A stretch of 64,000 nucleotides of DNA. Origin: Deltaproteobacteria bacterium ADurb.Bin207 (GTDB lineage: Bacteria > Myxococcota_A > Polyangia > Polyangiales > Polyangiaceae). Made by a program: the position numbers and the translations under genes. This document shows, piece after piece, positions 43,543 to 62,896 of the stretch. The notes below the pieces were generated by a model. It saw nothing but the letters and a program-made list of their open reading frames with translations, had not been told where the DNA came from and made no database searches. Position 1 is the stretch's first letter. Each line of letters starts with the position of its first letter. Where the stretch lies: NCBI GenBank assembly GCA_002070115.1, contig MWCO01000025.1, positions 1 through 64,000 of the forward strand, written 5' to 3'.

Positions 43543-45419
43543 TTCCCAGCCTTTCGCCGCACGGCCAAAAGACGGCTCAACTCCGTCGCCTGGTTCAACA
43601 AGGCGATGGCCTGCTGTTGATTGGCCGATGGGTCATAACGCAGGGTTTCACAGGCTTCCAACACCTCGACGGTGCTACGGGCGGCGGCGTCGGAGATACC
43701 CACGTCGGTCAGTCGAGCGGGAAGATCGGTACGCAACACTCCCCTGGATTTGATCGCCGTCGCGGCTTCGATCATCGCATGCACAGCCTTTTCCACTTCG
43801 GCCGCGGCGTCGGTGAAACGCTCCTGTTTGCAAGCGATTTTGGCTTCTTGCAGGGATATTTTTCCCTTTCGCCCCAGGGATTGGCGCCATTTCGTCACCG
43901 AACGGCGCGCTTTCCCTGCCATGTTCCACACGGCTCCCCCCATGACGATCGCCAGGGGCGAGGCGAATAACGCAATCCAATACCAGAGCGTATCCGTGAT
44001 CGGAGAGCTGATCCGCGGCGCCGTCCCCAGCGCCGTTCGCGGTTCTGCCACGGTTTCGAAACGATCGAGATCGGTTTTGATTTCCGGAGCCGACGCGTGT
44101 TGTCGAACCGTGACCTGCCCCAGTCGAGCTTTGGCGACCCCATAACGTTCGCGTTGGGGGTCATAGAATGGGAGCTCGATCTGCCCCAGATCCACGGTTC
44201 CAGGATCATGAAGCTTGACGATATAGGAAAAAACACGTTCGCCCCGGATGCGGCCGTCCACGGCCTCTATATTTTCTTTGATATCCGGATCTAACCACTC
44301 AATCCCTTTTTTCGAGGGAGTGGTCAATGAAGATGGTAAATTTCCCGTTCCTTCGACTTTGATCCGAACCGAGATTCCTCCCCCTGCATCGATATCCCGC
44401 GGTTCGACCGTGGCCGTCATCGAGAAGTTACCAACATCTCCCGAGCGATATCCCATCGGACGCCCGAGGGTGGGCGCGTCTTGTACCCGAATCAAAAGGG
44501 GTTTGCTTTCGCGCATGACTTCGCCCCGCAGGCCGCGCCCAAGATATCCAATGCGCATGGGGCCAATGGTCAAGTCGCCCAAGCGCAGGGGGAAAAGGGC
44601 TACTTTTCGCACCAAGCGGGCATTCCACACCGCACTGCCGACGTCCGCCTGACGAACCCCCGGATCGTCGCTCGGGTCCAAGATGGGGAATTGTAAAAAG
44701 TCTGCGGCAGAAGGCTCTTGAATCGAGGTTTTTCGTACGCCGGCCGTTTGATAATACTCATAGACCGAAAGGGTTAGCTGCTCGCCGAGAACCACGGAGG
44801 TGTTATCCGTGACGGCGTGCAGAAAAACGCCTTGTGCCGGCGCGGCGCTGATCGCCAGGGCTGGATCCGTAGCGGGAGGCTCCGGCTCCGCGAAAGGTTG
44901 AAAAGGATCGTCGAAGACGTTTGGGAGCTTCGGAAGGCCAAAAATGTCAAATATATCAAAGGGATCGCGAGATCGCGGGCGCGCTGGGCCCGCTCCCGGT
45001 GGATGAACCGTCACGTCTACCACCGCTCCCGCATGAAGCTTGCCGCCATATATCACCGTGGGCGGACCAATTCGATACTGCCCCGGTCGCGTCGCCTCCA
45101 ACGTCCACGTCGCAACGATGCCCATTTGCTGAATGAGATTGGGCCCATGCAAGGTAACCTGCGTTTTGGGCATGATCGTGGGTCCGGAGCGTATCTTGAT
45201 GCCAGGAGGAAGCGGCAACGATGGGTTTTGGGGCGTTCGATCCGTAGCGCTCGCCATCGCGCTGAGCTGAATCGTAAAAGGCCGCCCCACTTCCGTTTCC
45301 CGCTCGCTTACCGCCGTTTCGAGCGACGGCGGCCGAGATTGCGCCTCGACCGTCGGCGCCGGCAAAAGCAGCGCGAAAGCCATGAGCACCAATACCGCAA
45401 AACGAAAAGTGCGCGTCAC
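43539..45419 (-). CDS. batD: BatD-family protein
   Basis: 626 residues, GTG start overlapping the stop of the TPR gene (GTGA). Signal LMAFALLLPAPTVEA, then Ig-like beta domains as in BatD: SETEVGRPFTIQLSAMASA-like VSERETEVGRPFTIQLSA, VATWTLEATRPGQYRIGPPTV, VFLHAVTDNTSVVLGEQLTLS and VRIKVEGTGNLPSS. One C-terminal membrane span near residue 483 (LWYWIALFASPLAIVMGGAVW) leads to a cytoplasmic helical tail. BatD proteins are periplasmic partners of VWA/MoxR systems. Its exact client is unknown. Confidence 0.9.
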   Translation of the reverse strand: MTRTFRFAVLVLMAFALLLPAPTVEAQSRPPSLETAVSERETEVGRPFTIQLSAMASATDRTPQNPSLPLPPGIKIRSGPTIMPKTQVTLHGPNLIQQMGIVATWTLEATRPGQYRIGPPTVIYGGKLHAGAVVDVTVHPPGAGPARPRSRDPFDIFDIFGLPKLPNVFDDPFQPFAEPEPPATDPALAISAAPAQGVFLHAVTDNTSVVLGEQLTLSVYEYYQTAGVRKTSIQEPSAADFLQFPILDPSDDPGVRQADVGSAVWNARLVRKVALFPLRLGDLTIGPMRIGYLGRGLRGEVMRESKPLLIRVQDAPTLGRPMGYRSGDVGNFSMTATVEPRDIDAGGGISVRIKVEGTGNLPSSLTTPSKKGIEWLDPDIKENIEAVDGRIRGERVFSYIVKLHDPGTVDLGQIELPFYDPQRERYGVAKARLGQVTVRQHASAPEIKTDLDRFETVAEPRTALGTAPRISSPITDTLWYWIALFASPLAIVMGGAVWNMAGKARRSVTKWRQSLGRKGKISLQEAKIACKQERFTDAAAEVEKAVHAMIEAATAIKSRGVLRTDLPARLTDVGISDAAARSTVEVLEACETLRYDPSANQQQAIALLNQATELSRLLAVRRKAGK

Positions 45420-46408
45420 TTGTCGACCATACCCCGTACCTGGCGTCTTGCCGCATTCCTTCGTGCATCCTCGAGTTGCACCGTGGGAGCCGCTTCGAGC
45501 ATGTCCAGAATTCGGTCATCTTGCGTTTGGGGTTGTGGCGGAGGCTGCTTGTCCCCGTCCGGTTGTCCCGCATCCGGTTGCTTGTTCTCATCGTCCGGAG
45601 CCGAGCCATCCCCACCGTCCGGCGCACCATCCCCACCGCCCGAATCCTCGGAGGGAGCGTCTTGCTTGCCTTCGTCCCCAGATTCTTTCGGTCCATCCTC
45701 GCCGCCTTCCGGAGAGCCAGAATCCGTGTCCGGCGACGTATCCTGGGAAGCATCTTGCTCGTCCTGGGCGTCCTGCCCCGCGTCACGTTCGTTTTCCTCG
45801 ATGCGACGCAACGCAATGGCGCGATTCCAGGCCGCATCGCGCCCAACCTCGTCTCCCGCATCGGGCTCCACGCCAGGAATCAAACGCAGCGCTTCGTCGT
45901 AGGCACGAACCGCATCTCGATAGTTTCTTCGCAAAAACTCGAGGTTTCCTTCCAGGTATCGCGCTCGCGCCGCCAGGTCCACCGGCAGATCCGCAGACGA
46001 ACCGATCGCCCTTAGCAACTTGAGCGCACAGGTTACCTGTTCGGAACGAAGCTCCATCTGTTGTTTCTGTTCATCGGTCGGCCCCCCATCGCCAATCGAA
46101 CTCTCTTCTTCCCCAAACCGTGCACCGAATTTTTCACCAAGAAGGAAAAGCGCCAGGCCCAGGTCGAAAGAGGCATTGGAACGAGCGCGCGCCAGGTCCG
46201 TCACGCCAATCTCGCCTTTCTCGCACTTGCCTGTCCCCAAATAAGCCTGCAACAATTCCGCGGCCGGGCCCGCCTCCCCCGCATCCAACGCCTCGATCGC
46301 TCGATCGACTTGCGGCGCGTTGCGCTCGAACACCCGGTCCGGTTCCATCCCGCAGCCAGGTAAAACCAGCCAAGCCGCGAGCAGCCATCCACCCACACGG
46401 CTACGCAT
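45416..46408 (-). CDS. BatC-like TPR lipoprotein with long acidic tail
   Basis: 330 residues from the ATG at 46408 (MRSRVGGWLL); its start overlaps the BatB end by eight bases. Signal ends VLPGCGMEP, a lipobox. TPR-type helices follow (VDRAIEALDAGEAGPAAELLQAYLG, FDLGLALFLLGEKFG, RARYLEGNLEFLRRNYRDAVRAYDEALRL), then about 90 residues of Asp/Glu/Gly/Gln repeats (DAGQDAQDEQDASQD, GGDGAPDGGDGSAPDD) and a short basic end. The tail is likely disordered and surface-exposed. Confidence 0.8.
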   Translation of the reverse strand: MRSRVGGWLLAAWLVLPGCGMEPDRVFERNAPQVDRAIEALDAGEAGPAAELLQAYLGTGKCEKGEIGVTDLARARSNASFDLGLALFLLGEKFGARFGEEESSIGDGGPTDEQKQQMELRSEQVTCALKLLRAIGSSADLPVDLAARARYLEGNLEFLRRNYRDAVRAYDEALRLIPGVEPDAGDEVGRDAAWNRAIALRRIEENERDAGQDAQDEQDASQDTSPDTDSGSPEGGEDGPKESGDEGKQDAPSEDSGGGDGAPDGGDGSAPDDENKQPDAGQPDGDKQPPPQPQTQDDRILDMLEAAPTVQLEDARRNAARRQVRGMVDK

Positions 46409-47486
46409 ATCCCACCGTTCCCTTTCCCGAGCGCCTTGGAGGCTTTTTCTCCTCAATCTCTACAGTGTTTTTGCGTTTTTTCGCCTGCCCGATGAATGTT
46501 TCGACCACCAACAACAGCAACGCCAGCCCCAGCGGATAAAAGTATACATCCGCATACAATGTTTCTACCTTTTCCGATAATTCAGATTGCATCATCTGCT
46601 CGAGTTGACGTGACAAGACATCGATGCCCGTCGAGCCCCGCTCGGAACGAATGACCGTGCCCCCTGCAGCCTGGGCAATGGCTACGAGCTGTTCTTCTCC
46701 TTCGGCGGAAAGGGAGGTCATCAGGGGAAGACCGTCTTCGCCACGACGATGTCCCGAGACGCTTCCGGTGGAATCCACGTCGGGGACAGGTTCGGGGGTA
46801 CGACTGCCGATCTGTACGACATGGATGGTGGTGCCCGCATCAGCGATGGTTTTTGCCACGTTGACCGGACTGCCTTCGAGATCTTCGCCATCGGTAATGA
46901 GCACGATGACGCGGCGATGGTCTTTTGATTTGGGGTCGCGGGAGAGCAATTCGTTAGCGCGATTCAGAGCGCGAGCGATGGCGGTTCCTCCCACGGGCAT
47001 ATCATTGGGTTCGAGTTGGCGAAAAAACTGGGCAATGGCCATTCCATCGGAAGTGAGAGGAAAACCGATGGGTTCGCCCGCGAAAGCCACTGCCGCGAAT
47101 CGAGCGCCAGGAAGATCTTTGACGAGGCGCGCGACCTCGGCTTTCGCGCGGCTGATGCGCGAAGGTACGACGTCGCGTGCATACATACTCTTCGAGTAAT
47201 CGAGCACGATCACGACATCGAGATTGGTGGCGGGAATCAAACGCGTTCCTCTTCCATATTGCGGCTGCGCCATCGCAAGGAATGCGAGCGCGGTAGCGAA
47301 AACCAGAAGCACTCCTTTGGCGGCGCGACGCTTTCCCGCGGCTTCGGTCATGAGCGCCCCAACCCGTTCGGATTCACCGAATCGTCGGAGCGCTCTGACC
47401 AGGGCCACCCCCCCGGCGATCAGCATGGCGGCCACCACCAACGCTGCAGCCGTGCCCAACAACCACCAGGGTTCCGCAAATCTCAT
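46401..47486 (-). CDS. BatB-like VWA membrane protein
   Basis: 361 residues. Two N-terminal spans (PWWLLGTAAALVVAAMLIAGGVALV, GVLLVFATALAFLAMA), then a von Willebrand A domain with MIDAS DYSKSM (about residue 95), a Thr/Ser loop and TDGEDLEG. The Ser in DxSxS is kept although the usual DxSGS is DYSKS. A C-terminal span (YFYPLGLALLLLVVETFIG) and basic tail follow. Starts inside the BatA stop (ATGA). Bat VWA proteins bind partner proteins through the metal site. Confidence 0.9.
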   Translation of the reverse strand: MRFAEPWWLLGTAAALVVAAMLIAGGVALVRALRRFGESERVGALMTEAAGKRRAAKGVLLVFATALAFLAMAQPQYGRGTRLIPATNLDVVIVLDYSKSMYARDVVPSRISRAKAEVARLVKDLPGARFAAVAFAGEPIGFPLTSDGMAIAQFFRQLEPNDMPVGGTAIARALNRANELLSRDPKSKDHRRVIVLITDGEDLEGSPVNVAKTIADAGTTIHVVQIGSRTPEPVPDVDSTGSVSGHRRGEDGLPLMTSLSAEGEEQLVAIAQAAGGTVIRSERGSTGIDVLSRQLEQMMQSELSEKVETLYADVYFYPLGLALLLLVVETFIGQAKKRKNTVEIEEKKPPRRSGKGTVGYA

Positions 47487-48676
47487 GGGAACCTCCGCAG
47501 CATCCAGGCCCGACTCAAGGCATCCAAGGCCACGAGCCATACTCCCGGCAGAAGCAACAGCACGAATAAGTCCTCGTAGGTGGCCTGGCTCGCCTCGAAG
47601 CGCGTCTTTTCCAGGTTGTCGAGCACGTCATGCATGCTTTCTCGAAGCGCTTTCGCATCCGTGGCCACATACGCTTCGCCCCCCGTAGTTTTCGCAATCT
47701 CGTGCAACAGCTCCGGATTGACCGGGAAACGACGTTGCACGTAACGAGGATGACCGAATAAATCCACGCCATCCTGCACGTCCACATCGTCGCCGTTGCC
47801 GATTTGAATGGTGTACACCCGACACCCCACCACCGTTGCCAGATGCGCGGCATATTGGGGGGCGATGGCCCCCGCATTCGAATCCCCATCGGTCAAAAGC
47901 ACCACGGCTTTGGAACGTGCATCGCTTCTTCGTAGCCGAGCTACCGCAACACCAAGGGCATCACCAATGGCTGTGGCCGTGCCATCGATCAAGTCCAACG
48001 TCATTTTGCCGACGAGCGTATCGAGAAGTTGATAATCGAGCGTGGGAGGCGACAAGACGTAAGCGGATTTTCCGAAGACCACGACACCGATGCGATCCGT
48101 TTTTCGCAAGGAAATGAAGTCCTGCATTACGTATTTCGCGATATCCAGACGGGTTGGACGCAACCCTTTGGGAACGGCTCGACGCGGCAATTCCGAAGCC
48201 GGCGCGTCCATGACCGCTCGCATGGAACCGGAAAGATCCAACACCAGCACGATGTCGATGCCCAATTCATCCGTGCTTTCCGGACGCATCATCGAGATGG
48301 GTTGCGCCAGAGCCATCACAAGCATCGTGATCGCCGCGGCACGAAAAATACCGGGAAGGTCTTTCAAGCGCGCTCGCCATCCCTGCGGCCCTTGCAGGAA
48401 TGGATGGAGCGTACCCATTCGCATTCTGGGCAAACGGTTATCCTCTCCCAGCGTTCCGCGCCATAACACGATCGGCGCCAGCAACAACAGAAGCAACGCC
48501 CAAGGATGACGCCAGGTGACATGAAGCCAATTCCATCCCCGCATCGCCAACGGATACGCGAAAGCAAGGGCCATCACCGCGATTAGAAGAGCCAACAAAA
48601 TGAGTACGCGAATCGCGGTGCGACGCCCCTGTTGCTTTTTCGGAGTCGAAGAAGGCGAAATCGAAGTTTTTTTCAT
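47483..48676 (-). CDS. BatA-like VWA membrane protein
   Basis: 397 residues. An N-terminal basic segment, spans VLILLALLIAVMALAFAY and ALLLLLLAPIVLWRG, then a third near residue 115 and a VWA domain with a full MIDAS, DLSGSM (about residue 145), DGTATAIGDAL and LLTDGDSNAG. C-terminal span DLFVLLLLPGVWLVALDAL. Overlaps its upstream neighbour by four bases, as do all junctions of this block. Partner of the MoxR ATPase by family knowledge. Confidence 0.92.
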   Translation of the reverse strand: MKKTSISPSSTPKKQQGRRTAIRVLILLALLIAVMALAFAYPLAMRGWNWLHVTWRHPWALLLLLLAPIVLWRGTLGEDNRLPRMRMGTLHPFLQGPQGWRARLKDLPGIFRAAAITMLVMALAQPISMMRPESTDELGIDIVLVLDLSGSMRAVMDAPASELPRRAVPKGLRPTRLDIAKYVMQDFISLRKTDRIGVVVFGKSAYVLSPPTLDYQLLDTLVGKMTLDLIDGTATAIGDALGVAVARLRRSDARSKAVVLLTDGDSNAGAIAPQYAAHLATVVGCRVYTIQIGNGDDVDVQDGVDLFGHPRYVQRRFPVNPELLHEIAKTTGGEAYVATDAKALRESMHDVLDNLEKTRFEASQATYEDLFVLLLLPGVWLVALDALSRAWMLRRFP

Positions 48677-49887
48677 GTCTCGCCCTCCTGTTTCGAACTC
48701 TTGGAATCCTCAGAGGTCGCAGCAGACGAAGGCGGCATCGATGCGGGCATGGTCGCTTTTACGATTTTTTCCGCCATATCCAGCAGTTGATCACATTGTT
48801 CATTCGTCGGTGACCAGCGTGCGAACTTCACCAAATCACTATCGAAAAGCAGTTGGCGAATATCGTCAAAGACCAGCAACGGCGGTTGAATCTTCTCCAA
48901 GGCTCGAAGCGTTTCGGACGTCGTGGACTCGATCCCGTCGAAACCGAATCGGGCTCCAAGATAAATCCGAACAATATCCGATACTTGATCGACATGCTCC
49001 CCCCGCTCCGCATCATCGTGCGGTTGCAGGCCACGAAGTCGATGCAACGATTCCAAAGCCACTTCCCAGGGGGGGCGTGGAGGCGGAGGGGGAATCGGAG
49101 GCTTGGGGCGCCGTTGCCACCACAAAATGAACCACAGCGCCAGAGCGGCTACCACGACGCCAATCAATCCACCGTAGGTAAGGTCGCGAGCTAGCGTCCA
49201 GACCTCACGCTGGGGCCTCGGTTCGGGATTGCCTAGGGGTGCTGCTTCCGGCTCGTTCGCAATCGGTTCATCCACGATGATCGTATGCGGCGTGGTGCAT
49301 AGCGTCAGCACTTCACCGCTGGCTCGAGATACCGCGATGGGGATCGGCGGCAACGTGAGTTCATGGCGTCCCGGCTTGGCCGGAAGTGATAAAAAGTGAA
49401 CACGAACGTTTGTGGTAGCCTTGTCACGTTCCTCGTGGCGAGTCAGCGTGGGCCGAGAACCGCCGTTGGGATTGGGAAGTTCGAACCCGGCGCTCGAAAG
49501 CGCGCGCGCGGCATCGCTATCGGCTTGAATCCGAAAACCGTTCGGAAGAACCGTTTCCCCAAGGCCATGTTCGAGTTGAATCTCCAGCGTCAACGCGTGA
49601 CCGGCCAGCCCCCGCGTAGGAAAAGTATTGGTCAGCTTGGGACGCGTGGCTCCTTCAGGAACGTGCTCCACACAACTGGCCCAGATTCGCCCTGCATCTT
49701 CCCCAATCGGTAGCGCGTCGGTGCCAGCCTCCGATGGACCGGCGTCGGCTCGAGGTTGTCGCGCTACGTCCGCATCCGAAACCGAGCCGTCTACTGCCGC
49801 TTCCGAAGAAGCATCTTGCGCGGAGGCTTGACCGCCTAACGTCAATCCCAGCCCTAGCAGGAGCCCAAAAGCCTTCCCACGTTTCAT
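48673..49887 (-). CDS. Membrane protein of the MoxR/Bat operon, DUF4381-like C-terminus
   Basis: 404 residues from the ATG at 49887 (MKRGKAFGLL), which overlaps the DUF58 stop by four bases. Signal LLLGLGLTLGGQASAQ, Asp/Ala-rich spacer, then a periplasmic beta domain (LTLEIQLEHGLGETVL, VRVHFLSLPAKPGRHELTLPPIPI). One span, YGGLIGVVVAALALWFILWW, and a cytoplasmic helical domain with WEVALESLHRLRGL, DIVRIYLGARFGFDGIESTTSETLRAL and SDLVKFARWSP, which matches the DUF4381-type C-terminus found between DUF58 and VWA genes. Function unknown beyond this context. Confidence 0.8.
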   Translation of the reverse strand: MKRGKAFGLLLGLGLTLGGQASAQDASSEAAVDGSVSDADVARQPRADAGPSEAGTDALPIGEDAGRIWASCVEHVPEGATRPKLTNTFPTRGLAGHALTLEIQLEHGLGETVLPNGFRIQADSDAARALSSAGFELPNPNGGSRPTLTRHEERDKATTNVRVHFLSLPAKPGRHELTLPPIPIAVSRASGEVLTLCTTPHTIIVDEPIANEPEAAPLGNPEPRPQREVWTLARDLTYGGLIGVVVAALALWFILWWQRRPKPPIPPPPPRPPWEVALESLHRLRGLQPHDDAERGEHVDQVSDIVRIYLGARFGFDGIESTTSETLRALEKIQPPLLVFDDIRQLLFDSDLVKFARWSPTNEQCDQLLDMAEKIVKATMPASMPPSSAATSEDSKSSKQEGET

Positions 49888-50768
49888 CGCGAACGAACCC
49901 TTTTGGCGCGATGAGCGAATAAGTCGCGCAATGGCGCTACGAAAGAACCATCGGTCCTCACGACGCACAAATCCAGCTTATGCTTGCGAAAAACGCGAAT
50001 GCGCTCGTCTCGCACCGCTTTCATGCTTTGTGCGTAATGCTCGCGCACGCGGGCATCCGACGTGTCCACCGTGATCGATTCACCCGATTCGAGATCCTCG
50101 AATGTTGCAAGCCCAACGTCGGGCAAGGATTCGTCGCGAGGATCGACGAGCATGACCGGGATGATATCGTGTTTTGCCGAGGCAAGAGCCATGGCGCGCT
50201 CGAATCCGTCATCGAAAAAATCGCTGATGACAAAGGCAAGGCTGCGGCGGCGAGCTACTTTGACCAAGGTTTCGAAAGCGATGGCCAGGTTGGTTCCGTG
50301 GCTTTGGGGTTGGAAGGCAAGGATCTCGCGCACGACCCGGAGCACGTGTTTTTCGCCTTTTTTTGGCGGAACGAGCTTTTCCAGATGGTCGGAGGCAAGC
50401 ACGAGCCCGACGCGATCGTTGTTGTGAATGGCACTGAATGCGGCCAGGGCGGCGACCTCGCCGGCCACTTGCGACTTGGGGGCACGCACGGTTCCAAACA
50501 ACGACGATCCCGAGGCGTCCACCACCAGCATGACCGTAAGTTCTCGTTCTTCCACGAAAACTTTGACGAACGGTTCATTCATTCGCGCGGTGACGTTCCA
50601 GTCGATCTTGCGAACATCGTCGCCGCGCTGGTATTGCCGGACGTCGCGGAAAGCGAGACCTTGCCCCTTGAACACGGAAGTATAACTGCCCGACAGTTCT
50701 TCATTGGCAAGTTTCGCCGTGACGAACTCGATCTTCCTCAGTTGTTTGAGCAACTCCTTGGGAATCAT
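49884..50768 (-). CDS. DUF58 domain protein
   Basis: 294 residues. The DUF58 core is clear: FKGQGLAFRDVRQYQRGDDVRKIDWNVTARM, then a VWA-like part VMLVVDASGSSLFG with a near-complete MIDAS, and SLAFVISDFFDDGFERAM. No membrane span: cytoplasmic or membrane-associated partner of MoxR. Starts 12 bp after moxR and its stop is inside the next start. Confidence 0.94.
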   Translation of the reverse strand: MIPKELLKQLRKIEFVTAKLANEELSGSYTSVFKGQGLAFRDVRQYQRGDDVRKIDWNVTARMNEPFVKVFVEERELTVMLVVDASGSSLFGTVRAPKSQVAGEVAALAAFSAIHNNDRVGLVLASDHLEKLVPPKKGEKHVLRVVREILAFQPQSHGTNLAIAFETLVKVARRRSLAFVISDFFDDGFERAMALASAKHDIIPVMLVDPRDESLPDVGLATFEDLESGESITVDTSDARVREHYAQSMKAVRDERIRVFRKHKLDLCVVRTDGSFVAPLRDLFAHRAKRVRSR

Positions 50769-50780
50769 GAATGCGTAGCC

Positions 50781-51767
50781 CTAGGGAACCTCAACCGCCT
50801 CGAATACGCGACGCACCACGTCTTCGGTGGATACTTCTTCTGCTTCGGCCTCGTACGTGAGCACAAGGCGATGGCGCAGAACGTCAGGACCAATGGCTTT
50901 GATATCCTCCGGAGCGACATGCCCCCGACGTCGCAAAAAGGCGTGTGCTTTTCCGGCAAATGCAAGGGCGATGGAAGCGCGGGGGCTGGCGCCGTAGTGA
51001 ATGAGGCCCGCAAGATCCTTGATCCCGTAACGTTCGGGTTCTCGCGTGGCGCGCACCACATCCACGATGTATTGTTTGACACGTTCATCGGCGTAAATGT
51101 CGCGAACAACGCCACGGGCTTGCGAAAGCTGCTCGAGCGTGGCCACCGGTTTGACGGTGGCTGGAATGGGAGCGGTAACCCGATCGATGATCAGACGCTC
51201 TTCTTCGACGGATGGATAACCAACGCGAACCATGAGCATGAAACGGTCGACCTGAGCTTCGGGAAGAGGATACGTACCTTCCTGTTCGATGGGGTTTTGG
51301 GTAGCCATGACGAGGAAAGGGTCGGGCAAGTCGTAGGTGGTGTCTCCTAACGTTACTTGACGCTCTTGCATGGCTTCGAGCAGGGCGCTTTGGACTTTGG
51401 CAGGGGCGCGGTTGACTTCGTCAGCGAGCACGAAGTTGGCGAAAATGGGGCCGAGCTTCGAGGAAAACTCGCCTTTGTGGTGGTTGTAGACGACCGTTCC
51501 CGTCAGGTCCGCGGGCAATAAGTCTGGCGTGAACTGCACGCGCGCGAACTTTCCGGATAAGGCTTCGCAAACCGTTTTGACGCTCATGGTTTTCGCGAGC
51601 CCAGGAACGCCTTCGAGAAGAACGTGCCCGGAAGCGAGTAAACCGATGAGAATTCGCTCGACCATATACGTTTGACCGACGATGACCTTGCCGACTTCGG
51701 CGATGAGAGATTCGGTGAAGTCACTGTGCTTGGCCACGAGCTCATTGAGCGCGCGTACGTCCTGCAT
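50781..51767 (-). CDS. moxR: MoxR-family AAA+ ATPase
   Basis: 328 residues from the ATG at 51767 (MQDVRALNEL). AAA+ elements: Walker A LLEGVPGLAKTMSVK (about residue 54), Walker B FVLADEVNRAPAKVQ (about 114), sensor 1 FLVMATQNPIEQEGTYPLPEAQ and the VDRFM arginine region. MoxR proteins act with VWA partners as chaperones that assemble or activate envelope enzymes. It heads the operon; the 153 bp to the upstream regulator gene would hold the promoter. Confidence 0.95.
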   Translation of the reverse strand: MQDVRALNELVAKHSDFTESLIAEVGKVIVGQTYMVERILIGLLASGHVLLEGVPGLAKTMSVKTVCEALSGKFARVQFTPDLLPADLTGTVVYNHHKGEFSSKLGPIFANFVLADEVNRAPAKVQSALLEAMQERQVTLGDTTYDLPDPFLVMATQNPIEQEGTYPLPEAQVDRFMLMVRVGYPSVEEERLIIDRVTAPIPATVKPVATLEQLSQARGVVRDIYADERVKQYIVDVVRATREPERYGIKDLAGLIHYGASPRASIALAFAGKAHAFLRRRGHVAPEDIKAIGPDVLRHRLVLTYEAEAEEVSTEDVVRRVFEAVEVP

Positions 51768-51920
51768 GAACGAGAACCTCCAAAGCGAAAAAAAGGATGA
51801 ACAACCCGGGCGCCATGTATAGCCGCTCGGCCGCACGAGACAATCGAGAGTTGCAGGCTATTCCCAAGAATCGGTCAGCAGGTCATTATTTCGACAGAAA
51901 TACCCTTCGTTGCCCAAGGG

Positions 51921-53662: not shown

Positions 53663-53835
53663 CAGGCACAGACACGCTGGGCCCGACGCTGAACATGGCA
53701 TGGAGCCGTGGGAGACACGCGAAGATCAGGAAATGAACATCATGGACGGCGTTCTTGCGCCATGATGCCATTGCCACTGCTTTTGCTTCCCCCTTTTCTT
53801 GCCTCCCGGCAGCCCAGTCCCCAAGCTTGTCTCCC

Positions 53836-56800
53836 ATGCCCTCTCCCACGCCCCTCATCATCCATTGTCCTCGTTGGGACAGGCAACGACGCGAGATCAT
53901 GGTCATGCCCCTTGGCTTGCCCGCCCTCGCCAACCTCATCCTCGACCATACGGGCACCGCGCCGACGCTTGTCCACCTCGGTATCGAAAATGAGCATGAC
54001 CCGCATTTCCGTCTTTCCGAATTGCTGTCTCCTTCGCCCCCTCGCTTGCTGCTCGTGTCGCTCCATTGGTTCCTCCAAGTCCGTCCCGTGCTCGATCTCG
54101 TTCGCGAGTTGCGAAGCCTCGCTCCCGAATCGCTCGTTGTGTTGGGCGGCTTCACGGCCTCGTACTTCGCTCATGAAATCCTGTCCCGCGTGCCAAGCGT
54201 CGATGCGGTCGTCGTGGGAGATGGGGAACAACCCATCCTGGCGTTGACGCGCTGGGCCAGCGCCATTCCCGCTTTGTCACGGTCGCGGTTGAACGAAATC
54301 CCGAACCTCGTGTGGCGGGATACGGATGGTACGATTCGTCGCAACCCGCACCGGTACGTTCTTGGTTCGTCGGAAGCTGCCAGCCTCCGGCATGGAAGCC
54401 TATCGTGCCTGCGTCACCACCAACTGTATACCGAGCGCGCCCTCTATGCCGATTTCAGCGAAGGAAGCCATGAATCCCCGTACGCTCGCACCGCCTACCT
54501 CAACGCCGGAAGAGGATGCTCCGTAGCCTGCGCCAACTGCGGTGGTGGAAAACTCGCGCAAGCGGCTCTGGGCAAACGAAATGGTATTCTCGTCTATCCT
54601 TTGTCCAAACTCATCCGCGATATCGAGGAAAGCCTGTCTCACGGCGTCGACGTTCTCCGCATGTCTTTTGATCCTCCGTCCGCGAGACGACCGATGATGG
54701 CTTGGTTCGAGGCCATCGCCAAACTCAATCCTCGGTTTCGCCTCATTTATGACTTATGGTGGCTTCCTTCGAAGGCGCTGCTCGATTCGATGGCGCGAGC
54801 TTTTTCTCCGGGGTCGACACTGATTCTTTCACCGGAATGCGGCAGCGAAGCCGTACGAAAGCGGATTCGCGGTTATCCCTTCTCGAACGACCATCTGATG
54901 CAAGCGATTCATGCCATCGAGTCCCGTGGCTTTCGCACCCATTGTTTTTTTTCCGCCGGTCTTCCCACCGAATCCCCCGACGATCTCGAAGAAACCATCG
55001 GCCTCATCCAACGAATTCGAGGCGAAACGCAGGCTGGAATTTCGGTGTGTCCCATGACCGCCGACCCCGCAAGCCCCCTTTTCACCAACCCGGACGCTTT
55101 CGGCGCCACGCTTACACGACAATCGCTGCTTGATTTTTATCACGATCCCAGCCCCCATCGTCCAGGTTATCGAACAGCGTATTTTTCCGAGTCTCAAATC
55201 CTCGATGCTTGCAACCGACTCCTGCAAGCGGCCGCCTTGCCACCTTCCTTGGACCCCATCGTCGATTCCTCCTCGTCGATGTCACGAAATTCACTGGAAA
55301 TCGCTCCCAATCCATCAAAGCGCGTCGTGTTGCTCGTCGGCATGTTCCGGCGCATCGTTCCAGAAGGAAATGATGGTCCGTTCGGCAGCCAGGGAGGATT
55401 CGTCGATAACCTCGCCCCCTCCCCCTACAGCCTCGCCAATGGATATCTCAAGTCCTTCGTCGATGCGAACGACGCGCTTCGGGAACGATACGACGTGCGT
55501 CTCTTCGATATTATCGAACCCTGGGAGCCAGAGGAAGAGCGCGAGGAAGTGCGTATCACCGACGAGGACATCGATGCGCTTCTTTCCTATCATCCCGTTT
55601 TAATTGGGTTTTCTGCTTATTGTTGGAATCTCGACGCGGTCCGGACGGCTTGTCAAACGATCAAGCAGCGGCAACCGGATGTGCGTATCGTGGTGGGTGG
55701 AAGAGTCTCGCAAAGCGATGCACGCGATTGGCTTGCGTCCTGTCCCGCCGTCGATGCCGTGGTCGTTGGCGAAGGGGAACTGGCTTTTCGAGAAATCCTG
55801 CTTCGAGATGGCTTTTCCGGGATCGCGGGGGTGTTATGGCGGGAAGGCAACGAGTTGCGTTGGGGAGGAGCCCCTCGATGCTTGGACTCTCTCGACGATA
55901 TTCCTTCCCCTTTTCTCACCGGTGTTCTCGTTCCTGCCCTCCACGCCGTGATGCTCGAATTGTCCAGGGGGTGTTTGCATGCTTGCGGCTATTGCACGTG
56001 GAATGCAGACAAACGTCTCCGGCATTTTGGCTCCTCGCGTATCGAACAGGAGCTGCGTTGGGCCGTGCGACAAGGACATCAGCATATTACCCTGAACGAT
56101 TCCGCCATCAACTACGATACGGAGCGGCTTCGCGATTTCGTCGAGGCAATTGAGCGTGCGGATCCCTCGAATCGCCTTCGTTTCACGTATAACTTTCGAC
56201 ACGATGCGTTGACGGAGGAGCAATTCGAGCTTTTCCAGCGGTTGCCCACCCACGTAGCTCTCGTGGGTGTCGAAACCTTGTCGTCGCGGGGCATGGCCCA
56301 GGTTGATCGGCAAGCGGTGGATGTTCCAGCCCTTCGATATCGCTTGGAACGGTTTGCAAGGACCGTTCGGCCCGCGGTGGCCAGCATCGTGTTGGGACTG
56401 CCGGGCGATGATGAACAGGGATTCCTCGACACGCTCGATACCTTGATGTCTTATACGCAGCCCACCGATGGTCCTCCTTTCGTCGAAGCGGTGCTCGTAT
56501 CGCTGCTCCAAGTGTATCGGGGTTCGAAACTCTGGCAGCGCCGCGAACAACTCGGACTTGTCTTCAATCCGCGGGGAATCCCGTACTTGATCGAAAGTGC
56601 GTCCTGGACAAAAAATGCGCTGGCGCGTTGCAAAACAGCGATCATTCGTCGGATTCGCCAAAACCCTTCCCGCCTAAAAGCCGCTGAGGCACTCGTCATG
56701 ATGCGTGAACAGGGAGGATTGCCCGTCTGGCTTTCTCCCCGCGTGCTCGCTATCGTATTGCGCGACTGGCCGGAAGGAAAAACCTACGAGGGATGGACAT

Positions 56801-57066
56801 TGGAACGGATAGGACGAATGCGAGATACGGGGCAGGGAGCCTTGTTGCGCTTTCGTTTTCAATCCAAAGGCTGCGTTCGGGTCCGCATGCTAGAGCAAGA
56901 CGTTGGTCCACGACGATATCGGATGACGTATCACCTGGTCGACGGCGCAGCGATTCCGGGGGGGGCCGTCGATCGGCTCGCTCGGCTGGTGGAAGCCATG
57001 GTGCGAAACGGAGAACACCGGGCAGCAGCTTATTTGGCGGATCGAAGGGGTGGCAGGAAGAAATGA
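53836..57066 (+). CDS. Tandem double B12-binding/radical SAM protein
   Basis: 1076 residues from the ATG at 53836; an upstream TTG adds 27 unlikely residues. Two complete modules in one chain. Module 1: B12-binding-like domain (PLGLPALANLIL, VVVLGGFTAS-like LVVLGGFTASYF, VDAVVVGDGE), then radical SAM CSVACANC (C228, C232, C235). Module 2: VLIGFSAYCWNLDAVRT, IRIVVGGRVSQSDAR-like VRIVVGGRVSQ, VDAVVVGEGE, then RGCLHACGYC (C713, C717, C720). Both keep Cx3Cx2C. A C-terminal extension of about 150 residues is unassigned. Each single module is common and often modifies lipids, pigments or peptides; two in one chain is unusual. Cytoplasmic. It precedes arsR by 56 bp. Confidence 0.85.
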   Translation: MPSPTPLIIHCPRWDRQRREIMVMPLGLPALANLILDHTGTAPTLVHLGIENEHDPHFRLSELLSPSPPRLLLVSLHWFLQVRPVLDLVRELRSLAPESLVVLGGFTASYFAHEILSRVPSVDAVVVGDGEQPILALTRWASAIPALSRSRLNEIPNLVWRDTDGTIRRNPHRYVLGSSEAASLRHGSLSCLRHHQLYTERALYADFSEGSHESPYARTAYLNAGRGCSVACANCGGGKLAQAALGKRNGILVYPLSKLIRDIEESLSHGVDVLRMSFDPPSARRPMMAWFEAIAKLNPRFRLIYDLWWLPSKALLDSMARAFSPGSTLILSPECGSEAVRKRIRGYPFSNDHLMQAIHAIESRGFRTHCFFSAGLPTESPDDLEETIGLIQRIRGETQAGISVCPMTADPASPLFTNPDAFGATLTRQSLLDFYHDPSPHRPGYRTAYFSESQILDACNRLLQAAALPPSLDPIVDSSSSMSRNSLEIAPNPSKRVVLLVGMFRRIVPEGNDGPFGSQGGFVDNLAPSPYSLANGYLKSFVDANDALRERYDVRLFDIIEPWEPEEEREEVRITDEDIDALLSYHPVLIGFSAYCWNLDAVRTACQTIKQRQPDVRIVVGGRVSQSDARDWLASCPAVDAVVVGEGELAFREILLRDGFSGIAGVLWREGNELRWGGAPRCLDSLDDIPSPFLTGVLVPALHAVMLELSRGCLHACGYCTWNADKRLRHFGSSRIEQELRWAVRQGHQHITLNDSAINYDTERLRDFVEAIERADPSNRLRFTYNFRHDALTEEQFELFQRLPTHVALVGVETLSSRGMAQVDRQAVDVPALRYRLERFARTVRPAVASIVLGLPGDDEQGFLDTLDTLMSYTQPTDGPPFVEAVLVSLLQVYRGSKLWQRREQLGLVFNPRGIPYLIESASWTKNALARCKTAIIRRIRQNPSRLKAAEALVMMREQGGLPVWLSPRVLAIVLRDWPEGKTYEGWTLERIGRMRDTGQGALLRFRFQSKGCVRVRMLEQDVGPRRYRMTYHLVDGAAIPGGAVDRLARLVEAMVRNGEHRAAAYLADRRGGRKK

Positions 57067-57122: not shown

Positions 57123-57581
57123 GTGCGCAGGCTGGCAACGGTTTTCAAAGCGCTTTCTGATGAAACACGCCTTGCCATGCTCGGGCTTCTGCTTCGGGAA
57201 GGCGAATTATGCGTATGTGATTTCGTAGAAGTCCTCGGAATCACACAATCCAAAGCCTCGCGGCATTTGCGCTACCTGGTCCACGCGGGTCTGCTTCAAG
57301 ATCGTCGGGAATTGACCTGGGTCTATTACCGCATGGCGGACCAACTCGGCGCGGAGCAAAGGTTGGTGTTATCGGGGGTGCAGGAATTGGTAAAGCAACA
57401 ACTGCCTGATGAGTTGCTTGAATCTCTAAAAACATGGAAACAGCAGAAACAGTGCGATGGTGGATGTGGTCCATCGCCGAAAAAGCGACTCTCGAGCTGT
57501 CGCGGAAGGTGCGAGGGGACGATCGTTAGGCCCCTGGCTCTTTTTGAAAACGGCATTATGAAGCGATCCCCTCGCTCATGA
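57123..57581 (+). CDS. ArsR-family transcription regulator with As(III)/Sb(III)-type cysteine site
   Basis: 152 residues, GTG start with GAGGTGAT just upstream. Winged helix with VFKALSDETRLAML and the sensing motif ELCVCDFVEVLG followed by the recognition helix SKASRHLRYL; ELCVCD is the As(III) site of classical ArsR. The C-terminal 50 residues add CDGGCGPS and SSCRGRC, more potential metal ligands. Such repressors leave DNA when arsenite binds. The usual arsenic genes (arsB, arsC, acr3, arsM) are not nearby; instead the stop overlaps the UvrA start by four bases, so the two are translationally coupled. No clear operator was seen in the 56 bp before it. Confidence 0.92.
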   Translation: MRRLATVFKALSDETRLAMLGLLLREGELCVCDFVEVLGITQSKASRHLRYLVHAGLLQDRRELTWVYYRMADQLGAEQRLVLSGVQELVKQQLPDELLESLKTWKQQKQCDGGCGPSPKKRLSSCRGRCEGTIVRPLALFENGIMKRSPRS

Positions 57582-60500
57582 ATCGCACCGTTCTTCGCAA
57601 CGCCCGAACGCATAACCTACAGTCCGTCTGTATCGAGCTGGAGCCCGGCCAACTCATCGCCGTGACGGGAGTATCCGGTTCTGGCAAATCGTCGTTATGC
57701 CTCGATACGCTTTATGCGGAGGGTCAGCGTCGTTTCGTGGAGAGTTTCAGTCCGTACGCGAGGCAATTTTTAGAGCGCCATGAGCGTCCTCCGATCGACA
57801 GTCTGGACCCTGTTCCCGCGGCGATCGCTGTGGATCGTCATGCTCCTGTGAAAAGTTCACGGTCGACGGTAGCGACCATGTCCGACGTGGAACCCTATCT
57901 TTCCGCGCTATTTTTGCGGGAAGGGCGGCCGATCTGTCCGAACTGTGCGGTGGGCGCGACGTGGATGGATGCGGGGGTGGCGGCGTCTTCGTTGGTGTGG
58001 GAGTGGGCAGACGAGCGGGTCATCGTGTTGGCGCCGGGCCGGGCCGAGGGAACGGCGGCGTATCTCGATGCGCGCGACAGGCTTGTGGCGGCGGGGCATC
58101 GTCGTTTGTGGCTGGCCGATTCGATTCGCGACATCGATACGGTTCGGCCGAGTGAGATTTTGTCGGAAGGCTCGCGCTTCGAAGTCGTCATCGACCGAAT
58201 CAAGCTGGGAGAACCATCGTTACGAAGACTGCAAGAAGCGCTGGAACAAGCTTGGACCATGACCCAAGGTCAAGCGGTGATCGTGGGGGAAAGCAAAGGG
58301 CGTCGGACCGTGCAACGGGGGCTGGTATGTCCCTCATGTGCCAAGTCCTTTGCTCCACCACGCCCGGGGCTTTTTTCCTATCAATCTCCGGTGGGGGCTT
58401 GCGAAGAATGTCACGGCTTCGGACGTGTCATAGGTATTGATTTTCAAAAGGTTTTTCCGGATGCCGCCAAGTCGCTTGCCCAAGGGGCCATTCGTCCCTG
58501 GTCTGGGAAAACCAGCGCTTGGGAGCGTCGAACGCTGAAGAAATTCTGCTTACGTCATGATATCGACATGGATCGGCCTTGGGGACAACTGACGAAAAAG
58601 CAGCAACAATTGGTGATTACGGGGGATGGTACGTGGAGCGGTGGAAAATACCCGGGAATTATCGCGTGGTTTCGGTACTTGGAGTCCAAAGCCTATAAAA
58701 TGCATGTTAGGGTGATGCTTTCGCGGTACCGCGCCTACGATCCTTGCCCGGTTTGCCGTGGAAAACGCCTCAATGCCGCCGCGTTATCCTATGGTGTCGA
58801 CGGTCTCGACCTAGCTGGGTGGCACGGTTTGGAGCTTGGGGAAGCTCGCGCGCGATTGATGGGATGGAAAGCCACCCATCCGCAGGGGGAACTCATTCGC
58901 AAGGAGCTTCTGTCGCGGCTCGGTTTTCTTTGCGATGTGGGGCTTGGATACCTGACTCTCGACCGACAAGCCCGGACCTTGTCGGGAGGGGAAGCCCAAC
59001 GCGTATCGCTGACCGCCGCCCTTGGTGCCTCGCTTTCTGGTGCGCTCATCGTATTGGATGAGCCCACCGTGGGGCTGCATCCGAGCGATATATCGCCGCT
59101 CGTAGACTGCATGCGCTCGCTCGCCGACCATGGCAATACGGTGGTTGTGGTGGAGCACGATCCTTCGGTGGTTAGGGCGGTGGATCGGGTGGTAGAATTG
59201 GGGCCCGGGGCAGGGGCGAAGGGGGGAAGAATCCTTTTCGAAGGGTCTCCAGAGCAGCTCACTGCAAGGACCGATTTGCCCACGGGGCGCGCGCTGGCGG
59301 CCTGGCAGGAAAACCAGCCGTCGAATCGTCGGAAGTGGCACAAAACGTTGCGTGTTCATAATGCTCGAGCCAACAATTTGGCCACTATCGATGTGGATAT
59401 TCCTCTGGGGGTGATATGCGCTTTGAGCGGCCCGAGTGGGTCGGGAAAAAGCACCTTGGCGGAAGAGATCGTGTACCGGGCCGTGGCTCGCGCCCATGGC
59501 ATGACGGATGTGGATCCGCCTGCGGAGCACGATCGCCTGGAGGGGGTCGAGCATCTTTGCGGGGTTACGTTGGTGGATCAGAACCCGCTGGGAAGAACGT
59601 CGCGGGGCAATCCCGCAACCTATACCAAGGCCTGGGATCGGGTGCGTGCGCTATTTGCTTCCGAACCCGCGGCTCAGGGCCTGGGGTTCACCCCTTCTCA
59701 CTTTTCATTCAATGTTGCCGCTGGGCGCTGTGATGCTTGCGCGGGGGAGGGCTTCGAGACGGTAGAGATGCAGTTTCTCGCGGATATCTCGCTGTTATGC
59801 CCCGTATGTCGTGGAAAACGCTTCAAATCGGAAGTGCTGGAGGTTGTGCATCATGGCAAAACGGTGGCGGATTTGCTTGCCATGACGGTCGATGAGGTAG
59901 TGCAATGGGCCAACCATGATCCGGCCCTGGTTCGCGCCCTTCGCCCTTTGCAATCCCTGGGGCTTGGCTACCTGCCTCTCGGACAACCCCTGTCTACTTT
60001 ATCGGGAGGGGAGGCGCAACGTTTGAAGTTGGCGCGAGCCTTGCGCGGAAAAGTCAACGGACAACTTTTTGTGCTCGATGAGCCGAGCGCCGGCCTTCAT
60101 GCCGAGGATATCCAGTGTCTGATCGCCGCCATGCATGATCTGGTGGAAAGGGGCGCAAGCGTGCTCGTGGTCGAGCACGACCTGGATGTGCTGCGGGCCG
60201 CCGATTGGATCATCGACCTGGGCCCCGGCGCCGGACGTCATGGCGGAAGGGTTGTCGACCAAGGAACCCCAGAGCATATTGCCCAAGGTTCCCAACGCAC
60301 GGCTCTCGCCCTGCAACAACGGCATCCGACGACGGAGCCGTCGAGCCACCCCCAGCCGCTCGCCAAAGCCCATGGCAACCATGCCATCACCATTCGGAAC
60401 GCTCGAGAGCATAATTTGCGCAGCCTATCGTGCCAGATACCGCATCAACGCCTCGTGGTGGTCACCGGGCCAAGCGGATCGGGCAAAAGCTCGCTCGTTT

Positions 60501-62896
60501 TCGATGTGATGTTTGCGCAAGGGCAACGCCGCTTTCTGGAAACCCTTACCCCTTATGCGCGGCAATTTCTGCCCATCATGCCCCGTCCCGATGTCGATGC
60601 GGTGGCGGGTCTGCCTCCCGCGATTGCCCTGGAGCAGCGACGCTCGAGGACCGGGGGCCAGTCGACCGTGGCTACCGTCACCGAGGTCGCCCATTACCTT
60701 CGTTTGCTCTTCGCCAAAGTGGGTGTGGCTCATTGCCCGGATTGTGATGTCGCGATATCGGCACTTACGATGGACTCGCTGCTGGCTTCCCTTCGAGAAC
60801 AAAAGGGCAAAGGAATGCTGCTGGCTCCCGTCGTCCAAGCGCGAAAAGGAGTCTACCTGGACCTTTTGACCTCCGCCCATCGCGCGGGAATCGCTTGGGC
60901 TCGGGTGGATGGCGAAAAAGTCAGTACCGACAATCCTCCGAAACTGCGAAAAACCAAGGAGCATGATATCGATCTCCTCCTGTGGGAAGGTAACCTGCGA
61001 GATACGCCTCGGGAGGCGGTGGAAAAAGCCCTTTCCTGGGCCAAAGGGGTCGTACGAATCACGACGCTAGATGGTAAAGAAAAATTACTATCGACCCGTC
61101 GTGCATGCCCCAGTTGCGGAAAAGGAATACCCGAGCTGGACCCCCGGTGGTTTTCCTTCAACACGCAACAAGGGCGCTGCGAGGCTTGTGAAGGGACAGG
61201 GTTGCAGGAAATGGGATCGGGCGAGCCTTGCGAGGTTTGCGCAGGGGCGCGATTGGCTCCTTTGCCACGGTCGGTGCGCCTTTGCGGATGGCGATATTCG
61301 GAAGTGGTGGCACTATCGGTGGACAGCGCTCGAAAACAAATCCGACGCTGGTCATTTTCGGGAAGCGATGCCCGTCTGTCGGAGCAGGCTCTTCGCGAAT
61401 TGTTGCGTCGTATCGACTTTTTATCCGATGTAGGCCTTGGCTACTTGAGCCTCGACCGCGATGCTTCAACCCTGTCGGGCGGTGAAATGCAGCGTTTGCG
61501 TCTGTCCGCGCAGCTTGGGGCGGGGTTGACCGGTGCGCTTTACGTGCTCGATGAGCCCACCATTGGTTTGCACCCCTCCGATACGCAACGTTTGCTGGAC
61601 AATCTGAAAGCGCTCGTGGCTACCGGCTCGACGGTCGTGGTGGTGGAACACGATGCCGATACGATTCGAGCCGCGGATCACGTCATCGACCTGGGACCAG
61701 GAGGCGGAGCCCAGGGGGGACGTATCATGGCGGAAGGAAAGGCTGAGCAGGTGCTGGGCGACAAGCGTTCGCCGACGGCTGTGGCGCTTGGACATCGCAG
61801 GTTGCTCGAAGCGCCCCAAAGAGGCGTTGCGAAAGACTATATCACCGTGCGGGGGGCCGAGGCTCACAATCTCAAGCGGATCGATGCCGCCTGGCCCGTG
61901 GGACGAATGACCGTGGTGGCGGGGGTATCCGGCTCGGGAAAGAGCACGCTCGTTCAACAGATTCTCCTTCCTGCGGTGCGAGCGGCATTGGGGCTTACGA
62001 CGCCACCCCCGCTTGCTCACGATGCGGTGCAGGGAGCCGCTTATGTCGAGCGTGCGGTGGCGGTGGATCAGCAGCCCCTCGGCCGCACCCCACGATCGAT
62101 TCCCGCCACGTTTTTAGGGGTTTGGGACGAAGTAAGACGCCTTTTCGCGTCGCTGCCGGAGTCGCAGGTTCGTGGGTTTGGCGCGGCGAGATATTCGTTC
62201 AATAGCCACGCGGGGGGACGCTGCTCGGTGTGTGGGGGCATGGGCGTGCTTTCCCACGAAATGTCGTTTTTGCCCGATGTCATCACGGTCTGTGATGCTT
62301 GCCATGGGGCGCGCTTCGAACCTTCGACGCTGGAAGTGCGTTATCGGGGGCTGTCCGTGGGCGATGTGCTTCGGATGACAGCCAACGAAGCCGCGGAGCT
62401 ATTCGAAGCGCATCCTCGGATCGCGGCGCCACTTCAGATGCTGGAGGAATTGGGGGTAGGCTATGTGCAACTGGGACAAGGTTCCCACACCCTTTCGGGA
62501 GGAGAGGCGCAACGTTTGAAATTGGCTCTGGAATTGACGGCGAGCGTACGTCATCGCCCAACGTTATATGTTCTCGACGAACCCACCACCGGGCTGCATG
62601 TATCGGATGTGCAAAAACTCATTCGAGTGTTGCATAAACTCGTGGACCGGGGCGATACGCTGGTGGTGATCGAGCATCACCCGGATGTGATGGTCGCGGC
62701 GGACCATATTCTGGAGTTGGGCCCACGGGGAGGTGAGCAGGGAGGGCGTGTGGTGGCCGCAGGCCCCCCCCGCGAGATCGCGAACCTGCAAACGCCCACG
62801 GCAAAGGTGCTAAAACGCATATTTAACGAAAAATATGAAAAATATACGCCCCAGATATCAACCCTTGTGAACGAGTATTCTCGCTCGACTTCGTAG
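57578..62896 (+). CDS. Tandem-duplicated UvrA (two UvrA copies in one chain)
   Basis: 1772 residues, about twice normal UvrA. Four ABC ATPase sites: Walker A GVSGSGKSS (31), GPSGSGKST (about 618), GPSGSGKSS (about 964) and GVSGSGKST (about 1448), each with an LSGGE(A/M)QR signature and a DEP(T/S) Walker B (VLDEPTVGLHPSD, VLDEPSAGLHAED, VLDEPTIGLHPSD, VLDEPTTGLHVSD). Each half keeps UvrA zinc pairs (CPSC with CEEC, GRCDAC with CPVC; CPSCGKG with GRCEAC, GGRCSVC with CDAC). The region after residue 110 is large enough for the UvrB contact domain. I recall that chlamydial UvrA is also a double-length protein. Overlaps arsR by four bases. A normal uvrA, if present, is outside the window. Confidence 0.95.
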   Translation: MNRTVLRNARTHNLQSVCIELEPGQLIAVTGVSGSGKSSLCLDTLYAEGQRRFVESFSPYARQFLERHERPPIDSLDPVPAAIAVDRHAPVKSSRSTVATMSDVEPYLSALFLREGRPICPNCAVGATWMDAGVAASSLVWEWADERVIVLAPGRAEGTAAYLDARDRLVAAGHRRLWLADSIRDIDTVRPSEILSEGSRFEVVIDRIKLGEPSLRRLQEALEQAWTMTQGQAVIVGESKGRRTVQRGLVCPSCAKSFAPPRPGLFSYQSPVGACEECHGFGRVIGIDFQKVFPDAAKSLAQGAIRPWSGKTSAWERRTLKKFCLRHDIDMDRPWGQLTKKQQQLVITGDGTWSGGKYPGIIAWFRYLESKAYKMHVRVMLSRYRAYDPCPVCRGKRLNAAALSYGVDGLDLAGWHGLELGEARARLMGWKATHPQGELIRKELLSRLGFLCDVGLGYLTLDRQARTLSGGEAQRVSLTAALGASLSGALIVLDEPTVGLHPSDISPLVDCMRSLADHGNTVVVVEHDPSVVRAVDRVVELGPGAGAKGGRILFEGSPEQLTARTDLPTGRALAAWQENQPSNRRKWHKTLRVHNARANNLATIDVDIPLGVICALSGPSGSGKSTLAEEIVYRAVARAHGMTDVDPPAEHDRLEGVEHLCGVTLVDQNPLGRTSRGNPATYTKAWDRVRALFASEPAAQGLGFTPSHFSFNVAAGRCDACAGEGFETVEMQFLADISLLCPVCRGKRFKSEVLEVVHHGKTVADLLAMTVDEVVQWANHDPALVRALRPLQSLGLGYLPLGQPLSTLSGGEAQRLKLARALRGKVNGQLFVLDEPSAGLHAEDIQCLIAAMHDLVERGASVLVVEHDLDVLRAADWIIDLGPGAGRHGGRVVDQGTPEHIAQGSQRTALALQQRHPTTEPSSHPQPLAKAHGNHAITIRNAREHNLRSLSCQIPHQRLVVVTGPSGSGKSSLVFDVMFAQGQRRFLETLTPYARQFLPIMPRPDVDAVAGLPPAIALEQRRSRTGGQSTVATVTEVAHYLRLLFAKVGVAHCPDCDVAISALTMDSLLASLREQKGKGMLLAPVVQARKGVYLDLLTSAHRAGIAWARVDGEKVSTDNPPKLRKTKEHDIDLLLWEGNLRDTPREAVEKALSWAKGVVRITTLDGKEKLLSTRRACPSCGKGIPELDPRWFSFNTQQGRCEACEGTGLQEMGSGEPCEVCAGARLAPLPRSVRLCGWRYSEVVALSVDSARKQIRRWSFSGSDARLSEQALRELLRRIDFLSDVGLGYLSLDRDASTLSGGEMQRLRLSAQLGAGLTGALYVLDEPTIGLHPSDTQRLLDNLKALVATGSTVVVVEHDADTIRAADHVIDLGPGGGAQGGRIMAEGKAEQVLGDKRSPTAVALGHRRLLEAPQRGVAKDYITVRGAEAHNLKRIDAAWPVGRMTVVAGVSGSGKSTLVQQILLPAVRAALGLTTPPPLAHDAVQGAAYVERAVAVDQQPLGRTPRSIPATFLGVWDEVRRLFASLPESQVRGFGAARYSFNSHAGGRCSVCGGMGVLSHEMSFLPDVITVCDACHGARFEPSTLEVRYRGLSVGDVLRMTANEAAELFEAHPRIAAPLQMLEELGVGYVQLGQGSHTLSGGEAQRLKLALELTASVRHRPTLYVLDEPTTGLHVSDVQKLIRVLHKLVDRGDTLVVIEHHPDVMVAADHILELGPRGGEQGGRVVAAGPPREIANLQTPTAKVLKRIFNEKYEKYTPQISTLVNEYSRSTS

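Follow-up and report, generated by a model that had tools for sequence, protein, structure and literature searches.

Two B12-binding/radical-SAM modules are joined in a single open reading frame of Deltaproteobacteria bacterium ADurb.Bin207; it is a gene fusion, made in frame from two genes that are neighbors in related Myxococcota. It lies in the window, by which we mean the whole 64,000-nucleotide stretch analyzed (contig MWCO01000025.1, positions 1 to 64,000), and we think it rather likely that its product is a bifunctional enzyme carrying out two steps of one undescribed pathway. The finding holds up and is somewhat out of the ordinary, and the surrounding pathway is a more novel part of it than the fusion.

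Architecture of the fused protein

The frame is free of stops for 1076 codons, from the ATG at 53836 to 57066 on the + strand. An alternative in-frame start, TTG at 53755, is possible upstream of this ATG; homology begins near residue 7. The features of the frame are as follows.

53836..57066, + strand: fused two-module B12-binding/radical-SAM coding sequence, 1076 aa
53836..54345, + strand: module 1, B12-binding-type Rossmann domain, about residues 1-170 (Pfam, NCBIfam, AlphaFold model, alignment); W78 near-invariant
54490..55233, + strand: module 1, radical-SAM barrel, about residues 219-466 (Pfam, model, fold match)
54517..54540, + strand: module 1, [4Fe-4S] loop C228-x3-C232-x2-C235, then GG (motif scan, alignments)
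55234..55317, + strand: linker, about residues 467-494, where the models have low confidence
55318..55905, + strand: module 2, B12-binding-type domain, about residues 495-690 (Pfam, model, profile); W597 at the TokK W76 lower-axial position
55933..56490, + strand: module 2, radical-SAM barrel, about residues 700-885 (Pfam, NCBIfam, model, fold match)
55972..55995, + strand: module 2, [4Fe-4S] loop C713-x3-C717-x2-C720 (motif scan, alignment); W722 two residues on, like TokK W215
56719..57063, + strand: module 2, C-terminal beta/helix domain, about residues 962-1076 (model), common to paralogues E and D

An earlier reading, made from the sequence without database searches, had placed two Cx3Cx2C sites at C228/232/235 and C713/717/720, each behind a B12-binding-like domain of its own, with an additional domain at the C terminus, and all of this holds. 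A motif scan of the 1076-aa protein returns CX3CX2C twice only, at exactly these residues. Pfam matches two B12-binding and two Radical_SAM stretches (E 2.5e-22 and 1.3e-21), and both Pfam and the models, aligned to solved structures, put a B12-binding Rossmann domain N-terminal to each of the two barrels. In both modules the cysteine motif falls inside the radical-SAM barrel by Pfam, motif scan, models and alignment. The pair of motifs is far beyond a chance occurrence, because Pfam, NCBIfam and the whole-fold models agree on both halves. The C-terminal domain is modeled as four strands and a long helix; it has no match in a Pfam search, and alignment finds it also in the paralogues of the second module.

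The two modules are related in fold but are members of different subfamilies, and a recent internal duplication is not their origin: separate NCBIfam models match the separate halves, module 1 being a distant relative of TIGR04190 and module 2 one of the KedN5/TokK/CysS methylases. TIGR04190 matches residues 23-436 (2.4e-46; 158.5 bits, below its curated cut-off of 500) and KedN5 (NF033712) matches residues 532-871 (2e-39; 135.3 bits, below its curated cut-off of 700).

Fused and separate genes in relatives

An order-wide survey of 183 genomes gave fused-protein orthologues in five: G000, which is the genome of the window, and G015, G022, G084 and G133. Elsewhere in the phylum one genome, G264, carries module 2 but lacks a close orthologue of module 1; G084, the contigs of which are short, has module 1 and a module-2 match at paralogue level only (33%). 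The two modules are thus not always found together. The loci recovered by a scan of the genome contig collection were two, those of G264 and G133, and the phage and plasmid collections gave weak single-module matches only, none covering 80% of the query.

Members of the class had been expected to be single-module enzymes as a rule, and the homologues of module 1 typically are, with open frames of 287-588 aa; module 1 has a gene to itself in G015, G022 and G084. In G015 this gene is closed by a stop codon, and that of module 2 begins no more than about 100 nt away, on the same strand but in another frame. G022 has module 1 followed by module 2 in the same order and on the same strand, about 0.9 kb apart, and the stretch between them, read by eye, holds a Cys-rich ORF of secreted type. 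In G133, a metagenome-assembled genome from the genus of G022, module 1 runs on in frame through a linker and then through 60 residues at the start of module 2 (58% identical), up to a contig end that directly follows a CG repeat; the remainder of module 2 is at the end of a different contig. It is because of the separate neighbors in G015 and G022, together with the read-through in G133, that we regard the frame as a gene fusion. The fused state is known from two draft assemblies, in two genera (G000 and G133), and the separate adjacent form from two genomes; trees built for each module do not decide between a single fusion with later splits and two fusions.

It could also be that the fusion is an error of assembly or sequencing, and that the strain has two adjacent genes as G015 and G022 do. 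G000 is a single draft assembly, the linker is variable, and within it M482 (ATG at 55279) falls right where the separate second gene begins in relatives. However, G133, a divergent second assembly, also reads through in frame with a linker that differs from that of G000, and inspection of the sequence ahead of M482 revealed no purine-rich ribosome-binding site; codon-position GC is similar on either side of the junction, a comparison that is uninformative over 28 linker codons. We consider such an error unlikely, and even if it had occurred, the biology of two linked enzymes would hardly change.

The sequence-only reading had treated a break or a start between the modules in relatives as a point against a two-module protein. 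Separate genes with their own starts are indeed what G015 and G022 have, but the gene fusion stands, and we read it as the join of neighboring pathway genes. It had likewise asked whether tandem fusions of this type are common and characterized: tandem radical-SAM proteins are known (FbiC), but no described tandem of two B12/radical-SAM modules was found in a literature search over a limited collection. The search found nothing specific on TIGR04190 or on a Myxococcota B12-radical-SAM/YVTN cluster.

A conserved set of radical-SAM and nitrogenase-like genes

The fused gene is one of about ten radical-SAM and nitrogenase-like genes that form a set conserved in few genomes. In G015 nearly all of this set is on a single contig, within about 23 kb. 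In G000 the genes for proteins A, B and C are at 64-70.7 kb, on the same contig as the fused gene and just beyond the window, and those for E and D are on another contig. Protein A is a YVTN propeller; protein B combines a radical-SAM-like domain lacking the Cys triad with a class I methyltransferase; and protein C (794 aa) combines a B12/radical-SAM module with a MoaA/NirJ-like SPASM radical-SAM module. Protein C occurs in G264 and, within the order, in the five genomes that have fused-protein orthologues. The three genes form a block (L026:1388-6532, contig C25, just past the end of the window) that is conserved with the fused protein.

Paralogue D is likewise a tandem of B12/radical-SAM modules (864 aa in G000; 907 aa from the start used in G015), and in both genomes the Cys triad and further motif residues are gone from its second module (L025:10892-13486 and L023:5572-8292). 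The tandem radical-SAM architecture has thus arisen more than once in the gene set, once with a dead module. A further composite protein of G015 (L023:855-4037, 1060 aa) has a B12/radical-SAM module, a second radical-SAM-like segment and a short-chain dehydrogenase.

Other neighbors of the fused gene were also noted. Upstream of it, on the - strand (43539-51836), genes for a MoxR ATPase, a VWA-domain protein and a BatD-like protein stand in a row. At 57123-62896 a gene for an ArsR-type regulator directly precedes an ORF of 1772 aa that repeats UvrA-like ATPase motifs and looks like a double UvrA. Beyond the window, adjoining the gene for protein C, is a methyltransferase gene (L026:481-1368), absent from the other clusters, whose product has a CCCS stretch near the N terminus like that of arsenite methyltransferases. 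A link to arsenic, suggested by the ArsR gene at 57123 and this methyltransferase, was dropped, as the cluster regions of G015 and G022 contain no such gene.

A search for shared short ORFs found no conserved small ORF, such as one for a precursor peptide, common to the clusters. It did bring up a conserved neighbor, a protein of nitrogenase component-1 type (PF00148, 7e-42). A matching pair of opposite-strand frames (L022:272-3289 on the - strand and L042:8423-9700 on the + strand) lacks a Pfam match and was taken as an antisense shadow of known genes.

Genes of PF00148 and NifH type occur in all six carriers of the gene set and in none of five relatives chosen for lacking it. Across the order, PF00148 is found in 15 of the 183 genomes, namely in 5/5 carriers versus 10/178 others (Fisher p 1.9e-6, in a test that assumes independence between genomes, although related genomes do not have it). 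Several of the ten non-carrier positives score far higher, up to 435 bits, as is expected of true nitrogenase/chlorophyll-type enzymes. The NifDK-like pair of the cluster type is 57-69% identical between genomes; it is in an operon with E, D' and F in G022 and adjoins F in G015. These pairs fall far below every NCBIfam cut-off, the best score being 61 bits against 505 (NifE). The NifDK-type genes are at L022:13316-16533 (G022), L100:6336-9834 (G015), L064/L046 (G000, contig C23) and L024:3-1430 (G084), and further NifDK-type pairs with NifH-type genes are found elsewhere in the same genomes (G000 contigs C35 and C69).

Predicted structures and active sites

Because MAFFT stacks the two modules onto one another, each half was modeled alone with AlphaFold, from alignments of its own orthologues together with more distant homologues. 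The model of module 1 has pLDDT 88.4 and pTM 0.90, with linker residues 469-482 below 50, and that of module 2 has pLDDT 84.9 and pTM 0.84. The best solved fold matches of module 1 are MgmA (Z 27.6, rmsd 3.1, 369 aligned), AprD4 (26.3, second in rank), CysS (26.1), TsrM (25.6) and OxsB (25.2). Module 2 matches CysS (Z 32.7, rmsd 3.0, 422 aligned), TokK (25.4) and MgmA (25.1), and its sequence profile finds TokK (7e-46) and CysS (6e-41). Because these are full-fold matches to solved cobalamin/radical-SAM enzymes, both halves are predicted to have the complete architecture of such an enzyme, and both would bind cobalamin. Methylase chemistry is not provable from the fold, as AprD4, a radical-SAM diol dehydratase and no methylase, folds similarly.

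The sequence-only reading had taken the ordinary cysteines of both modules to indicate two active sites. All six are invariant in our alignments, in 15/15 module-1 and 12/12 module-2 sequences, whether fused or separate, and the triad is kept also in distant single-module homologues of module 1. The reading's two options, successive reactions on one substrate or one structural module, fare differently: two modules with intact motifs are there, but the structural option fits paralogue D and not the fused protein. That module 2 is catalytic and module 1 structural or regulatory is thinkable in a gene set where inert modules do arise, as the second module of paralogue D demonstrates in two genomes. 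In the fused protein, however, the RGC motifs around both triads are intact along with the triads themselves, the cysteines are conserved as above, and module 1 exists as a gene of its own in three genomes. Because both modules keep their motifs, we rate a merely structural module 1 as quite unlikely.

Beyond the cysteines, the active sites of the two modules differ. In module 2, W597 aligns with TokK W76 (Trp in 12/12 sequences), and W722, two residues after the last Cys, aligns with TokK W215 (Trp in 11 of the 12). TokK W76 is the Trp below the cobalt, the roles of W76 and W215 being given in PMC9692996, and a lower-axial Trp is present in CysS too (PMC12846815). Module 2 thus has the TokK/CysS-like residue signature of a lower-axial Trp and a Trp at +2, and is probably a C-methylase. 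In module 1 the +2 position is Gly237, invariant in 15/15 sequences, where the TokK/CysS-like class B C-methylases have Trp or Glu; its second-shell signature is CGG at the last Cys with no Trp at +2. The near-invariant W78 of module 1 is within one residue of the lower-axial position, in a region of ambiguous alignment.

Both modules might instead perform the same C-methylation twice on one carbon chain, iteratively and at two sites, as relatives of TokK and CysS methylate iteratively (PMC12846815). However, the known iterative enzymes use one site, the modules are of different families (TIGR04190-like and KedN5-like) with little in common beyond the fold, and no Trp follows the Cys loop in module 1, so that we hold this to be very unlikely.

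Proposed function and pathway

We propose that the two modules serve different steps. The protein would offer two intact cobalamin/radical-SAM active sites on one chain, separated by a flexible linker of about 28 residues. If module 2 works like TokK and CysS, as is probable, one SAM would methylate cob(I)alamin, and a second SAM, bound at the [4Fe-4S] cluster, would give a 5'-deoxyadenosyl radical that abstracts hydrogen from an unactivated carbon; the methyl group of methylcobalamin would then pass to the radical carbon, with two SAM spent per methyl group. For module 1, the second-shell signature of which differs, another kind of radical or methyl-transfer step is therefore probable. From the fusion and the adjacency of the separate genes we infer a common substrate or pathway for the two modules, most likely with different steps of one pathway served by each, as by CofH and CofG in FbiC; the fusion alone does not prove a common substrate.

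The same pathway would use more B12/radical-SAM proteins, a radical-SAM-SPASM fusion, a YVTN propeller and a nitrogenase-like reductase. We suggest tentatively, as a possibility that falls a little short of an even chance, an undescribed route to a cofactor or metabolite in few Myxococcota, built on six or more B12/radical-SAM proteins together with several radical-SAM proteins of SPASM type, a YVTN/cytochrome-d1-like propeller and a new nitrogenase-like reductase. In this rare conserved gene set, many B12/radical-SAM enzymes go together with a nitrogenase-like reductase that fits no named family. Only a few nitrogenase-like enzymes have known substrates, so a further one in a genetically defined pathway is directly testable, and a tandem of two different B12/radical-SAM sites would suit the study of hand-over between radical steps.

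Comparison with known systems

Module 2 resembles TokK and CysS in its fold over the B12 and radical-SAM domains, in its sequence profile, in the lower-axial Trp and in the Trp after the Cys loop. Unlike them, it has a different C-terminal domain and sits fused behind another module, and neither carrier-protein nor carbapenem genes were seen around the fused gene. Module 1 matches TIGR04190 (B12_SAM_Ta0216, a model described without function) over residues 23-436, and a CxxxCxxCGG loop is common to module 1 and its Myxococcota homologues; however, the score under the cut-off makes it no equivalog, and the family members found here are single-module. To MgmA, AprD4, TsrM and OxsB it is alike over the full-length fold (Z 23 to 28), but with 12-16% identity, and because the reactions of these four enzymes differ widely, the function of module 1 is unreadable from the fold match.

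The FbiC (FO synthase) of bacteria unites two radical-SAM proteins that act in one conversion and that archaea make separately, as CofH and CofG (PMC11917521). The fused protein is similar in having two radical-SAM modules in one chain that are separate in other lineages, and FbiC is its closest characterized parallel in architecture, not in family; neither the CofG nor the CofH family model is among the NCBIfam or Pfam matches shown for the fused protein. The modules of FbiC are not known to have a B12-binding domain and are of other families, and its substrates are known.

Known nitrogenase-like systems with radical-SAM partners have been summarized (PMC11423573). As in Isr, Mar, CfbCD and DPOR, a NifDK-type pair and NifH-type proteins here accompany radical-SAM genes, but the NifDK-like pairs are linked to many B12/radical-SAM genes rather than to one.
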